From assembly GCA_029210545.1 (NCBI GenBank), contig JARGFV010000041.1:1-19907 (forward strand): a stretch of 19,907 nucleotides of DNA. Reading direction: 5' to 3'. Below the pieces are notes generated by a model. That model searched no databases, had not been told where the DNA came from, and saw only the letters and a program-made list of their open reading frames with translations. The position numbers were made by a program, and so were the translations under genes. This DNA comes from a bacterium. GTDB lineage: Bacteria; BMS3Abin14. Below are positions 8,158 through 16,468 of this stretch, piece by piece (the stretch's first letter is position 1; each line of letters opens with the position of its first letter).

Positions 8158-8370
8158 AGGGGAAAGATCCGGCGTTCCGAGTGGGCGAGGGGGGAGGCCG
8201 GGGGAAAGAGCGAGCAGTATCGCCTGCCCATCGATGAAGAGCCGTAGTTGCGTGCGTGCGTGCGTCCGTCCGTAAGTGCTTTAATAAAAAAAGTCTGTTG
8301 TCAATGGAAGATCTTACGCGCTAACGCACACACACTCCACTCACATACGAAGAAACGCACGAGGGAAAAG
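8158..8370. repeat. gyrA to pilZ spacer with microsatellite and loose 7-nt tract
   Basis: TGCG is repeated four times and TCCG twice at 8249-8272. An A/T-rich stretch (8280-8292) follows. From 8314 to 8362 is an A/C-rich tract that can be read in heptamers (TTACGCG, CTAACGC, ACACACA). CGTAAG near 8271-8276 and CTTACG near 8313-8318 are complementary, so the two halves could pair weakly. I see no convincing terminator or promoter here. Confidence 0.4.
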
Positions 8371-8709
8371 ATGGACGACAAAAGGAGGCACTCCAGGTAC
8401 CCGGCGGCAGAGATGACCTATGTGGTCGGGCTTCAGAGTCCGGCCCTTATCACCGACGTGAGCCAGGGTGGTCTCGGAGTGCGTTACAAGGGTACCGACG
8501 AACTTCCCGGGGAGTTGGTGGTGGACCTTCTCAACGCCTCGCAGAGCATCCAGCTTGAGAAGGTACGATGCCGGAAGGTCAGAGACGAGACCGTGGGCAG
8601 GGTGGCCGTGTTCAGCTATGTGACCGAACGCCGGCTGGGACTCGAATTCGTGGAACCGGGCAATGACATACTGGACGCGCTGGCCAGGTTTGTGGGAAAA
8701 GAGAACTAG
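8371..8709 (+). CDS. PilZ-domain protein, first of a tandem pair
   Basis: This is a single-domain protein of 112 aa predicted to bind cyclic-di-GMP. The N-terminal RRHSR fits the RxxxR motif and DVSQGGLGV fits (D/N)xSxxG; both are the known ligand-binding signatures of PilZ domains. LGLEFVEP near the C-terminus is the usual last strand. No signal peptide or membrane segment is visible, so it should be cytoplasmic. The chosen ATG 8371 has GAGGGA just upstream; the open frame extends further 5' but only through low-complexity sequence. It resembles the next gene in motif order and length, so the two are probably paralogues. Its target (motility, polysaccharide secretion or other) cannot be read from the sequence. 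Confidence 0.85.
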   Translation: MDDKRRHSRYPAAEMTYVVGLQSPALITDVSQGGLGVRYKGTDELPGELVVDLLNASQSIQLEKVRCRKVRDETVGRVAVFSYVTERRLGLEFVEPGNDILDALARFVGKEN

Positions 8710-8775
8710 GAGTCTGTCGGACTATCCGTTTCAGACTCCTGGCAACGTGTCGGTAAGGTCCGACACGTTGCCAGG
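8708..8775. repeat. Double hairpin beginning inside the first pilZ stop codon
   Basis: Hairpin 1 (8708-8740) pairs AGGAGTCTG with CAGACTCCT. Hairpin 2 (8738-8775) pairs CCTGGCAACGTGTCGG with its exact complement around a 6-nt loop, a perfect 16-bp stem. The two share the bases CCT. Hairpin 1 starts at the second base of the TAG stop. The same arrangement follows the second pilZ gene, interrupted by an insertion. Confidence 0.85.
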
Positions 8776-8778
8776 ATC

Positions 8779-8806
8779 AGTGGAAAGTGGAAAGAAACAG
8801 GATGAA
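8779..8806. repeat. Heptamer tract after the first double hairpin
   Basis: AGTGGAA is repeated twice in exact 7-nt register at 8779-8792, followed by AGAAACA and GGATGAA. A matching tract with the same AGTGGAA unit follows the second pilZ gene at 9363-9397, which supports duplication of the whole gene-plus-spacer unit. Confidence 0.6.
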
Positions 8807-8827
8807 GGGCGCGGGAAGGGCGATAGC

Positions 8828-9181
8828 ATGGCGATGATGGAAAAGCACGAGGACAAGAGACGGCACCCAAGGTTCCGGGCGGCCGACAGCGCGCTTGCCG
8901 CCTGCGGCATGGAAGCGTGCGCTCTCCTGGACGTGAGCGCGGGAGGGCTGGGCATCCAGTATTACGGCGAGAGACCGTTCCCCCGGGAGATCAGTGTCGA
9001 TCTTCTGTTTTTAAACAGGGATCTGACCTTGCCGGGGCTTTTCTGCCGAAAGGTGTTCGAAGCGAGAAAGCCCAACGGGAAGGAAGGGCGCCTGCCTGTA
9101 TGGCATGTGGGCCTTGAGATCGTAAGCCCCACTCCGGAGATGGTTCAACGCCTGCGTCATTTCAGATGGACGGAGAGCTAG
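8828..9181 (+). CDS. PilZ-domain protein, second of a tandem pair
   Basis: This 117-aa protein carries RRHPR (RxxxR) near the N-terminus and DVSAGGLGI as the (D/N)xSxxG motif, so cyclic-di-GMP binding is predicted. It shares architecture and several segments with the preceding gene (KRRHxR, DVSxGGLG, FCRKV against RCRKV, LGLE against VGLE). It is soluble, with no export signal. The start at ATG 8828 has GGGAAGGG about 7 nt upstream; the frame stays open further 5' but through hairpin sequence. The stop TAG is entered by the same AGGAGTCTG hairpin as in the first copy. The protein is somewhat shorter in its loops than full YcgR-type proteins and has no partner domain. Confidence 0.83.
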   Translation: MAMMEKHEDKRRHPRFRAADSALAACGMEACALLDVSAGGLGIQYYGERPFPREISVDLLFLNRDLTLPGLFCRKVFEARKPNGKEGRLPVWHVGLEIVSPTPEMVQRLRHFRWTES

Positions 9182-11873: not shown

Positions 11874-12764
11874 ATGAAAAAAACTGCCCTTATTGTTGCT
11901 ATAGCCTTTTTCATGGCTGCCGGCAGCTCTAAAGCCGTCTCCGCTTCCCCCGATCAGTCCACCGCGGTGCGCCGGCGCCTCGCCATGGAGAGTGCGGCCA
12001 GGGACAACCCCTTTCTGATCCTGCCCCATCGGCCCAACTACATCCTGCCCCTTGCATATAACCTGCACCCCAACGACGAGGCGTCCGGGCTCGAACCCGG
12101 GACCCTTGACGAACTGGAGATGACCTTCCAGGTGAGCCTCAAGGTTCACTTGAGCGAGCTGTTTCCGGGAAACCGCGGGAACCTTTACGCGGCGTATACC
12201 AGCCGCTCGTGGTGGCAGGCCTACAGTGGCGACAGGTCACGGCCGTTCAGGGAGACCAACCATGAGCCGGAGCTGTTTCTCCTTTACGATACCGATTGGA
12301 GCGTTCTTGGGCTTCGGGCGTCCAGTGTGATCTTCGGTGTGTCCCACCAGTCCAACGGGCAGGACGGCGCCTTGTCACGCAGCTGGAACCGGATCTACAC
12401 AAGCATCATCCTCGAGAGGGGAAACGCCATAGTAAGCGTGAAACCCTGGTACCGTATCCCGGAAAGGGAAAAGGACGGCCCTGACGACCCCGATGGGGAT
12501 GACAACCCTGACATACGAACATACATGGGCTCCGGGGAACTGGGGGTCTTCTTCAGGCGGGCCCGTCACACTCTGACCCTCACGCTCCGCAACAACCTGC
12601 GCCGTGAAAACAAGGGATCTGTCGAGTTGGGGTACTCCTATCCGCTCACGGCAAAGATGAAGGGGTACCTGCAGATCTTCGATGGATACGGCGAAAGCCT
12701 TATCGATTACGACCATCGGATGTCGAGGGTGGGTGTGGGTATCCTGCTGGCGGATTGGCTGTAA
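11874..12764 (+). CDS. pldA: Outer membrane phospholipase A
   Basis: OMPLA is a calcium-dependent outer-membrane enzyme that hydrolyses phospholipids reaching the outer leaflet. The 296-aa length matches the family (about 290). A signal peptide covers about residues 1-24 (Lys-rich start, hydrophobic core, AVSAS cleavage region). The active-site residues H158, S160 and N172 lie in SHQSNG...SRSWNR, with the same spacing as E. coli His142/Ser144/Asn156. Other hallmark segments are SRSWWQAY, PFRETNHEPELF, VKPWYRIPE, DNPDI.TYMG and GYGESLIDYDHRMSRVGVG. The enzyme should sit in the outer membrane and become active on dimerisation. The start ATG has only a weak upstream GGA. Its gene converges with the TIR-like gene downstream. 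Confidence 0.96.
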   Translation: MKKTALIVAIAFFMAAGSSKAVSASPDQSTAVRRRLAMESAARDNPFLILPHRPNYILPLAYNLHPNDEASGLEPGTLDELEMTFQVSLKVHLSELFPGNRGNLYAAYTSRSWWQAYSGDRSRPFRETNHEPELFLLYDTDWSVLGLRASSVIFGVSHQSNGQDGALSRSWNRIYTSIILERGNAIVSVKPWYRIPEREKDGPDDPDGDDNPDIRTYMGSGELGVFFRRARHTLTLTLRNNLRRENKGSVELGYSYPLTAKMKGYLQIFDGYGESLIDYDHRMSRVGVGILLADWL

Positions 12765-12877: not shown

Positions 12878-13861
12878 CTATTCAAACAACAGGTTGGCGT
12901 CGATGAAAAAGCCGTTGGCCTTTAGCTGTTTCAAAAGGCCGATCTGCCAGCCGCCTTCTTCCTGGTACTGGATGTAGCGAACACCGAAAAGCTGCTCAGG
13001 AAGGTCGCCTGGACGCTCCCCCTCAAACAGCACGGTCACCGCTCCCGGGCCCAGCCGACCAACGAAAAACCCCAATTTGTACGCCAATTCGTGCTTGGAT
13101 TTTCCCATCCCGATAACAGACGTAAGGCCGGAGAGCCCTCCCCTCTGCCCGACGGCGAGGATCAGGAGCGTGAAAGCGATATGATCCACTGAGGCCAGGC
13201 TTTCCATGGACAGGGCAGAAGGGTCCTGGCCCGGGACCTCTATAGAGATACCAAGGCGGCCAAGCAGCTGTTCGACTGACGGAGTGATCGCCTCCCCGGC
13301 GCCGGAAATGATAAGGACCTTGCCCGGCTGATTCTGGGTGGATGCGGGTTTTTGCGGCGCTGACTGCGGGGCGCCGGGTGGCGAGGGTGCGGGTTTTTCG
13401 GCCACGGTTTTCGAAGCCTGCGAAGGAGCCGGCTTGGGCGCCTCCTTCAAGGGCGCCTTCACGGCCTTGGCCCGCTCTTTGGGCGGTGACTGTTTCACCT
13501 CCACCAGGTCCTCGCTGGAAATCTCCTGGATCAGGTCCGGTTCATCGTCAATGCGGTCCATGAGTTCGAGGAGTTCCTCGAGCCTGGTGATAGCCTTGGG
13601 GACGCCCATCTCGTACTTGGACTGCTTTTCCGTTTTGGAGTCCGCCCTCGAAAGGGGCCCTGCGGATATCTTGAACTGTTCGAAAGCGTCGTGCTCCGGA
13701 GATTCGCTGCCGAAAACGTCACTGACAGATTGTGACACCGCCAGTTCGAGGTCTTCCACCTCCTGGCTGTCGAAAGGAACAATCCTCGGATCGATGGTCC
13801 GGAGCTGATCCAGGACCTCCTGGAGGAGTTCCCTGCCCTTTTTCCCGGATAACTGTGCCAT
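12878..13861 (-). CDS. Protein with N-terminal helical domain, Pro/Ala linker and degenerate TIR-like C-terminal domain
   Basis: At 327 aa, it has three parts. Residues 1-105 are mostly helical and include VFGSESPEHDAFEQFKI, reminiscent of domains found before TIR-like domains. Residues about 125-180 are a Pro/Ala/Lys-rich linker. Residues 180-327 resemble the predicted nucleotide-binding TIR-like family (PF10137): KVLIISGAG, LLGRLGISIEV, HELAYKLGFFVGRLG, VTVLFEGE...LPEQLFGVRYIQY, and GGWQIGLLKQLKANGFFID. In family members the middle segment usually reads like ELGYFIGKLG, with a Glu thought to be catalytic; here that position is Lys262. The start at ATG 13861 follows a GGGGG-containing ribosome-binding site; the frame is open 41 codons further up. 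No cyclase or other defence gene is adjacent. An NAD-cleaving role is doubtful. Confidence 0.65.
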   Translation of the reverse strand: MAQLSGKKGRELLQEVLDQLRTIDPRIVPFDSQEVEDLELAVSQSVSDVFGSESPEHDAFEQFKISAGPLSRADSKTEKQSKYEMGVPKAITRLEELLELMDRIDDEPDLIQEISSEDLVEVKQSPPKERAKAVKAPLKEAPKPAPSQASKTVAEKPAPSPPGAPQSAPQKPASTQNQPGKVLIISGAGEAITPSVEQLLGRLGISIEVPGQDPSALSMESLASVDHIAFTLLILAVGQRGGLSGLTSVIGMGKSKHELAYKLGFFVGRLGPGAVTVLFEGERPGDLPEQLFGVRYIQYQEEGGWQIGLLKQLKANGFFIDANLLFE

Positions 13862-15258: not shown

Positions 15259-15460
15259 TCCAGCCTCCCGGGGCACCTGTCCCCGTCACCTCCCCGCCAA
15301 GCAGTCCGGAAAGATCCCTCTTCTCCTTGCCCGGCACGTTGGCCATGAGCCGGATCGCGGCAACGACGCGGCCGCGCCCGTACGGGACGAGGATCGGGAA
15401 GTTGATGATAACAGGCGGATTTGATGTAATATGGGGGATCTGCTCCGGAAGGAGAGCCGC

Positions 15461-16468
15461 TTGTCGAAGAGAAAGATAACCATGACAGCTGCCCTTGCTC
15501 TCGTGCTGTTTTGTTCCGGGGCCGCGGCAGCTGCCGAAACGGCGCTGATCGGGGACAGCATGGGCGCCTGCATGGGTGAAGAGGGGTTTGAAACGGCCTG
15601 GCTGGACAGGATCCATTCCTACATCACCAGGACCCTGTGCCAGCCTTCCGTGTGGTTCGACAACTTTTTCGGTGAACAACGTTCCGGCGAAGAGTGGCCT
15701 GGCAGCCTGGTGCGGTGGAGATCATCCTTTCGAAGGGACGAGAAGGAGGGGGATCTTTTCGGTTCCGGCGTGAGCGCCAGCCTGCGTCTCCCCAAGATGA
15801 GCCAAAAGTTCAGGCTGATAATCACCTCCCAGGACAATGACCTGGATGCGCCCGGCCATCCTGGTGAAGACCCTTTTCTGCAGGATACGGATCCAGGGGT
15901 TACTGCCGACACGAAACGAAGTGCCGCCGGTTTGAGGTATGACCTCTCCGACACCAGGCGGGCGAGACTTCACCTCGGAGCCGGGTTCCGTTTGACCGAT
16001 ACAGTGGAGCCGTACGTGCGTCTCCGCCTCAGGGTCACGGAACCCCTTTCGAGCCACACCCTTGTCAGGCTCACACCTGCTGTTGTCTGGTTCAGGGACG
16101 AGGGGATAAACCAGTCTTTCCGGATCGACTTTGACTGGAGGCTGGGAGAGAGCGCCCTCGCCAGGGCCACGGAGGCGGCGCTCTGGAAAGAGGTGGAACC
16201 GGGCGTCCAATGGGGTTCGGCTCTTTCCCTTTTTGACAGACTTGGTCCGACGGTCGTTGCGGGGATCGAGGGCTCTGCGGAAGGGAACACGTATCCAAAA
16301 AACGACGTTGCCCGCTACCGTCTCGTTACAAGGATCAGGTCAAATTTTATCCGTCCCTGGCTTTTCCTGGAGGCGGCTCCGGAACTCTACTGGCCTCGGG
16401 ACGACACAGGGCGCTACAGGAGGTACAAGGCGACCACCCTGAGGATCGAAGTCCAGTTCTTCAGTTGA
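15461..16468 (+). CDS. Predicted outer-membrane beta-barrel protein of unknown function
   Basis: Of 335 aa, it starts at TTG 15461, with AAGGAG 6 nt upstream. A signal peptide is clear: SKRK, then a hydrophobic core ALALVLFCSGAAAAAE. After a periplasmic-type segment (WLDRIHSYITRTLCQPSVWFDNFFG) the protein consists of alternating short strands rich in Arg, Leu, Phe and Tyr (RLHLGAGFRLTD, VEPYVRLRLRVTE, LVRLTPAVVWF), typical of barrel strands. The end RPWLFLEAAPELYWPRDD...TLRIEVQFF resembles an uncharacterised family of such proteins, and the aromatic terminus fits a barrel assembly signal. No catalytic triad like that of PldA is present, so it is not a second phospholipase. Function unknown. 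Confidence 0.7.
   Translation: MSKRKITMTAALALVLFCSGAAAAAETALIGDSMGACMGEEGFETAWLDRIHSYITRTLCQPSVWFDNFFGEQRSGEEWPGSLVRWRSSFRRDEKEGDLFGSGVSASLRLPKMSQKFRLIITSQDNDLDAPGHPGEDPFLQDTDPGVTADTKRSAAGLRYDLSDTRRARLHLGAGFRLTDTVEPYVRLRLRVTEPLSSHTLVRLTPAVVWFRDEGINQSFRIDFDWRLGESALARATEAALWKEVEPGVQWGSALSLFDRLGPTVVAGIEGSAEGNTYPKNDVARYRLVTRIRSNFIRPWLFLEAAPELYWPRDDTGRYRRYKATTLRIEVQFFS

Follow-up and report, generated by a model that had tools for sequence, protein, structure and literature searches.

Bacterial TIR domains are usually interpreted as NAD-cleaving immune enzymes; many animal TIR adaptors function without catalysis. TIR NADases are oligomers with active sites that span subunits (PMC12421889, PMC9402430). 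The NAD pocket of the TIR-STING protein SfSTING lists R78, N80, E84 and D110, and N80 coordinates the adenosine-side phosphodiester/ribose, away from the scissile ribose (PMC9402430). In ElSTING, E86 is named as the catalytic residue and E86A was used as the catalytically dead control (PMC12421889). Our literature search returned no text on the PADLOC defence candidate PDC-S35, and none on bacterial pseudo-TIRs under the terms tried.

This work describes one gene in a stretch of bacterial DNA of 19,907 nucleotides, which is referred to in its entirety as the window. Its product joins a helical bundle to a TIR domain of the CAP12/PycTIR type through a disordered Pro/Ala linker. On balance, this product is probably a pseudo-TIR, which would be vertically inherited, derived from a candidate defence effector and kept for binding or scaffolding.

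Gene architecture and family assignment

The open reading frame lies on the minus strand, runs from ATG 13861 to stop codon TAG (12880-12878) and encodes 327 aa. The start is supported by a purine-rich stretch (AGGGGG) approximately 7 nt upstream of the ATG. AlphaFold2, run with the nine orthologues (mean pLDDT 68.8), places a helical domain at the N-terminus, followed by a disordered linker (residues ~111-178, block pLDDT 31-37) and by a C-terminal α/β domain of moderate pLDDT, in which the CC-loop region (residues 238-253) falls below 50 (Table 1). The initial annotation had described an intact helical domain and a long Pro/Ala linker, and both are borne out: the frame is open without an internal stop, and the linker is Pro/Ala-rich and predicted to be disordered.

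Table 1. Features of the TIR gene and its product, with positions in the window
Feature	Position	Strand	Basis
Whole-protein CDS, 327 aa	12878..13861	-	ORF; orthologues in eight other species of the phylum
N-terminal helical domain, residues 1-110	13532..13861	-	AlphaFold2 pLDDT 84.9; alignment; PADLOC and NCBIfam matches
Pro/Ala-rich linker, residues 111-178, variable except EDLVE	13328..13531	-	pLDDT <50; dN/dS ~0.49
CAP12/PycTIR-type TIR domain, residues 179-327	12881..13327	-	PADLOC PDC-S35; Foldseek; VIA-align
Lys262 at the catalytic Glu position (SfSTING E84, ElSTING E86)	13076..13078, codon AAA	-	Alignment; 6/6 clade members
Glu258, the same in all Lys-clade members; SfSTING N80 position	13088..13090	-	Alignment; pocket residues (PMC9402430)
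Ser186 for His of HGHDE	13304..13306	-	Sequence comparison of orthologues
Gln290 for DD-loop Asp (SfSTING D110)	12992..12994	-	Alignment; pocket residues (PMC9402430)

A TIR-like C-terminal domain had also been proposed, to be checked by a PF10137 profile search and by comparison of a predicted structure with known TIRs. The profile search gave a mixed answer: PF10137 (CAP12-PCTIR_TIR) covers residues 181-300, but at 15.5 bits against a curated cut-off of 24.7, so that a plain Pfam scan would overlook the protein. Three profiles of PDC-S35 were matched (E 2.2e-19, 1.5e-13 and 5.1e-12), and all nine orthologues match this PADLOC candidate. When HMMER was run against the PDB, E values <0.1 were obtained only for the CAP12 TIR-STINGs 7un8 and 9lmq. 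The structural comparison agrees with the proposal, as the AlphaFold2 model has the flavodoxin-like architecture of TIRs and solved TIRs match it best. All six Foldseek matches with E ≤ 0.001 are TIR-STING chains (best 9lmq_B, E 1.1e-5), and VIA-align gives Z scores of 10-12 to the TIRs of SPARTA, TIR-STING and SARM1. Because receiver domains score nearly as high in VIA-align (Z ~10), the fold by itself is insufficient to assign the family. It is settled as CAP12/PycTIR-type by the PDC-S35 match and by TIR-STING being best both by sequence and in Foldseek.

The N-terminal domain comprises helices at residues 3-22, 33-50, 55-60 and 76-106. PADLOC and NCBIfam matches and alignment place the same domain at the head of canonical PDC-S35 TIR proteins and of TIGR02391 proteins, consistent with it being a swappable sensor or assembly module. 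The N-terminus could be aligned with L035, L041, L044 and L049 at a low identity of 16-21%, and homology to canonical PDC-S35 members rests on a shared motif and the profile matches. The predicted domain is a generic helical bundle for which fold searches gave no clear match among solved structures (Foldseek best E 0.6; VIA-align Z 8.3, unrelated helical chains), and a fold assignment was dropped on these grounds. At the start of the linker, the motif EDLVE (residues 117-121, positions 13499-13513 of the minus strand; EDLVE in A1) is conserved in most orthologues and could be a docking motif.

A substituted catalytic face

When the HMMER profile is aligned to SfSTING and ElSTING, Lys262 falls in the column of the Glu of FEFG (residue 86 in 9lmq), and the motif reads YKLG where FELG is expected. 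The substitution of Lys (codon AAA) for the Glu of the ELG.F.G motif, as first noted in the initial annotation, is thereby upheld at the catalytic position. The further correspondences to SfSTING are E258 to N80, K256 to R78 and Q290 to D110, with K262 corresponding to E84; chain number 92 of 7un8 minus an offset of eight residues gives E84, and the same offset, which is deduced from the agreement with the published pocket residues, gives R78 and N80. E258 and K262 place a negative and a positive charge at the N80 and E84 positions. The annotated replacement of the usual HG by SG was also read, as S186-G187 for the HG of HGHDE, and can be refined: position 186 is Ser in the window genome alone, Gln in the sister species and His in three relatives that retain the catalytic Glu.

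In the PF10137 family the catalytic Glu belongs to FELG on helix αC, whereas all six Lys-type members carry Lys262 at this position. Both the Asn and the Glu are present in 12/12 of the canonical domains compared from outside the phylum. The Glu was also found in all 68 distinct alignable PF10137 domains of viral contigs. The Asn is likewise present in 68/68, but the scan patterns specify Asn and not Glu, so that only the Glu count is unbiased.

Other proteins have lost the catalytic Glu too, though rarely, as two cases in other phyla show. The PDC-S35-like protein L046 (1078-1932) has Gln in its place and Glu four residues before, while its relative L074 retains the Glu; L046 is a possible parallel of the window protein. 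In the PDC-S35 protein L011 (1246-2232; same gene as in L051), Arg occupies the catalytic position and GGSSDG replaces HGHDE. The L011 genome also encodes a canonical copy (L015), possibly forming an active/inactive pair.

Since Lys holds the catalytic position and Glu replaces the Asn that contacts the adenosine side, ordinary NAD+ cleavage is unlikely, and we infer that NAD hydrolysis has been lost in the window protein. Some caution on this dead-enzyme reading is due, as the E162A mutant of TirC recovered NADase activity when PEG 8000 was present as a crowding agent (PMC13142454).

Descent and selection within the phylum

Orthologues occur in 9/12 species of the phylum, which here equals one family; the gene is absent from the other three genomes, two of which are 71-78% complete. 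Six species combine Lys262 with Glu four residues before (E to K, N to E; Lys type), and three (L008, L009 and L010) keep the catalytic Glu (Glu type) and exceed the PF10137 cut-off at 37-61 bits. A weak PF10137 match in G004 was rejected as an orthologue, being a separate protein. The TIR tree unites the six Lys-type proteins as a single clade with support 1.0, next to L008-L010, and the GyrB tree gives the identical split of the genomes (support 0.998); internal branching differs between the two trees at weakly supported nodes. The simplest account of this pattern, in a sample of six Lys-type genomes (several of them incomplete and one with a masked C-terminus in the protein), would be that E changed to K once, in the lineage leading to the Lys clade. 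One genome of the phylum carries a second, partial gyrB match (L072, G010:C3), perhaps assembly contamination or a ParE-like gene.

That the Lys type came from a mobile element or a phage was rejected. No full-length match was found in plasmids or phages, where the TIR part alone matched (24-29% identity among the matches listed), and the whole-protein profile found no relative in viral contigs.

Two comparisons address whether the Lys-type protein is being maintained. For the closest Lys-type pair, dN and dS amount to 0.018 and 0.14 in the TIR domain (ratio ~0.13); the N-terminal domain gives 0.037 and 0.256, and the linker 0.169 and 0.344 (ratio ~0.49). This purifying selection, in an estimate that depends mainly on one species pair, indicates that the TIR domain is being kept in the Lys clade. 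Secondly, the Lys type was compared at 18 positions where each of the three Glu-type proteins keeps the residue conserved in canonical members. The four on the catalytic face (H186, D238, R256 and E262, the first two placed there by TIR topology) are changed in most or all Lys-type proteins, and the 14 others are mostly kept (Fisher p 0.0003, a descriptive result, the grouping having been drawn after the table was seen).

That the gene is a decaying remnant of a defence gene, as its absence from 3/12 genomes (two of them the less complete ones) might suggest, is scarcely credible: frames are open throughout, the TIR domain evolves under purifying selection and the derived residues are common to six species. 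Decay is thus largely refuted. The same clade-wide pattern could be read as relocated catalysis, in which E258, one helical turn before the old site and named in the initial annotation as a Glu that might occupy the active site, is catalytic; K262 might assist, and the substrate might differ from NAD+. All members of the Lys clade have E258, the residue appeared on the branch where E262 was lost, and L046 shows the same pairing of a Glu at -4 with a lost Glu. Set against this, E258 corresponds to the adenosine-side residue N80 of SfSTING (PMC9402430), H186, the Asp of PDD and, in most members, the DD-loop Asp are changed as well, and an E-K pair at i,i+4 may equally be a plain helix salt bridge. 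We regard relocated catalysis as quite unlikely.

Genomic surroundings

From their translations, dnaN, recF, gyrB and gyrA were recognised in the window, together with PilZ, TPR, IMPDH-type, PLA1, zinc-ribbon, MTHFR and cNMP-binding genes. None of the window's genes was identified as a defence gene, and the remark that no cyclase or nuclease lies nearby holds for the whole window. Four Lys-type loci (the window, L026, L027 and L029) have a PLA1 gene close to the TIR gene, on the opposite strand; metF stands beside the TIR gene in the Glu-type locus L030 and near it in the Lys-type locus L029. No same-direction partner gene recurs across the compared loci, and an operon partner was rejected, since PLA1 alone recurs nearby and does so on the opposite strand.

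Two further loci of the window were noted. After gyrA, two overlapping PilZ-like ORFs lie side by side (8248-8709 and 8663-9181), only the first with a sub-threshold Pfam match. A 345-aa ORF at 15431-16468 without a Pfam match resembles an outer membrane phospholipase-type barrel and has an orthologue in L033; it is separate from the clear PLA1 gene at 11874-12764.

Defence genes are usually gained and lost. The presence of this gene in 9/12 species, amid housekeeping genes and without a recurrent partner, therefore weighs against an antiphage role without NAD hydrolysis, in which the helical domain would sense infection and the TIR domain would recruit an effector encoded elsewhere. Such a role would fit with PDC-S35 being a PADLOC defence candidate, and with the TIGR02391 domains behind the same N-terminal domain matching the Aga_HEPN and PD-Lambda-3_B models, but we consider it unlikely.

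A decoy or damper function, by dominant-negative co-assembly with an active TIR of the same cell, can be conceived because active sites that span subunits would allow a dead subunit to poison a TIR NADase oligomer. The window genome, 97% complete, contains no second PF10137 or TIR_2 match, and the lack of an active paralogue of these families makes a decoy highly improbable. A search for the SMODS cyclase family gave no match in the window or in any of the 12 genomes of the phylum.

Proposed history and significance

The pseudo-TIR reading is more probable than a decoy, decay or catalysis by E258. We infer that the TIR domain acts by binding, in a scaffold or switch role. Reuse for a non-enzymatic job is probable because six species share the Lys while the gene stays intact. 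An ancestor within this small uncultured phylum probably carried a candidate antiphage TIR effector built like PDC-S35, with a helical domain for sensing or assembly, then a linker and a TIR domain, and this effector would then have been inherited vertically. On the branch to the six species the NADase centre would have been lost (E to K, the His of HGHDE, the Asp of PDD, and Asn to Glu four residues before), with purifying selection continuing thereafter. Most likely the TIR domain would now only bind, by self-association or partner docking in response to something detected by the helical domain, while the flexible linker serves as a tether. A possible but still tentative account is exaptation: in one branch of the phylum, an antiphage-type TIR effector would have become a binding or scaffold protein that is non-enzymatic and passed on vertically.

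The initial annotation had suggested a retained, non-enzymatic role, such as ligand sensing or a decoy. Retention is strengthened by clade-wide fixation, purifying selection and the joint loss of the catalytic face, and the decoy version is weakened by the missing paralogue. The comparative data back a retained non-enzymatic role more firmly than a single sequence could. If this is true, a bacterial TIR without catalysis, like the animal TIR adaptors, has arisen inside the CAP12/PycTIR family. The loss of the Glu, clade-wide and selected, next to relatives outside the clade that retain it, offers a natural before/after pair, which lets one ask when and how a TIR NADase becomes a pure interaction module. 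A PDC-S35 match in a defence finder need not mean an active effector.

Comparison with known systems

PDC-S35, a solitary-gene candidate, shares the helical N-terminal domain and a PF10137-type TIR domain with the window protein. Its canonical members carry HGHDE, PDD, RARQN and FELG, whereas the window protein has none of these, and the long Pro/Ala linker is not seen in the canonical members compared. CAP12/TIR-STING proteins (SfSTING and ElSTING) are alike in TIR fold and alignment, and of all solved structures they score best in Foldseek and in the profile search. The window protein differs from them in its substitutions (Lys for Glu, N80 to Glu, D110 to Gln), and no STING domain was found in it, the N-terminal bundle having no clear fold match; the CD-NTase expected in the operon or genome of a CBASS CAP12 was not found either, with no SMODS among the 12 genomes. 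The link to PF10137 and PycTIR, the Pycsar effector, is provided by L008-L010, which lie above the PF10137 cut-off while the window protein lies below it, and by three members that match PycTIR. Lastly, the TIGR02391 (hypoth_ymh) proteins L012, L042 and L048 have the same N-terminal helical domain followed by a TIGR02391 domain in place of the TIR, a module thus common to at least two kinds of C-terminal domain.
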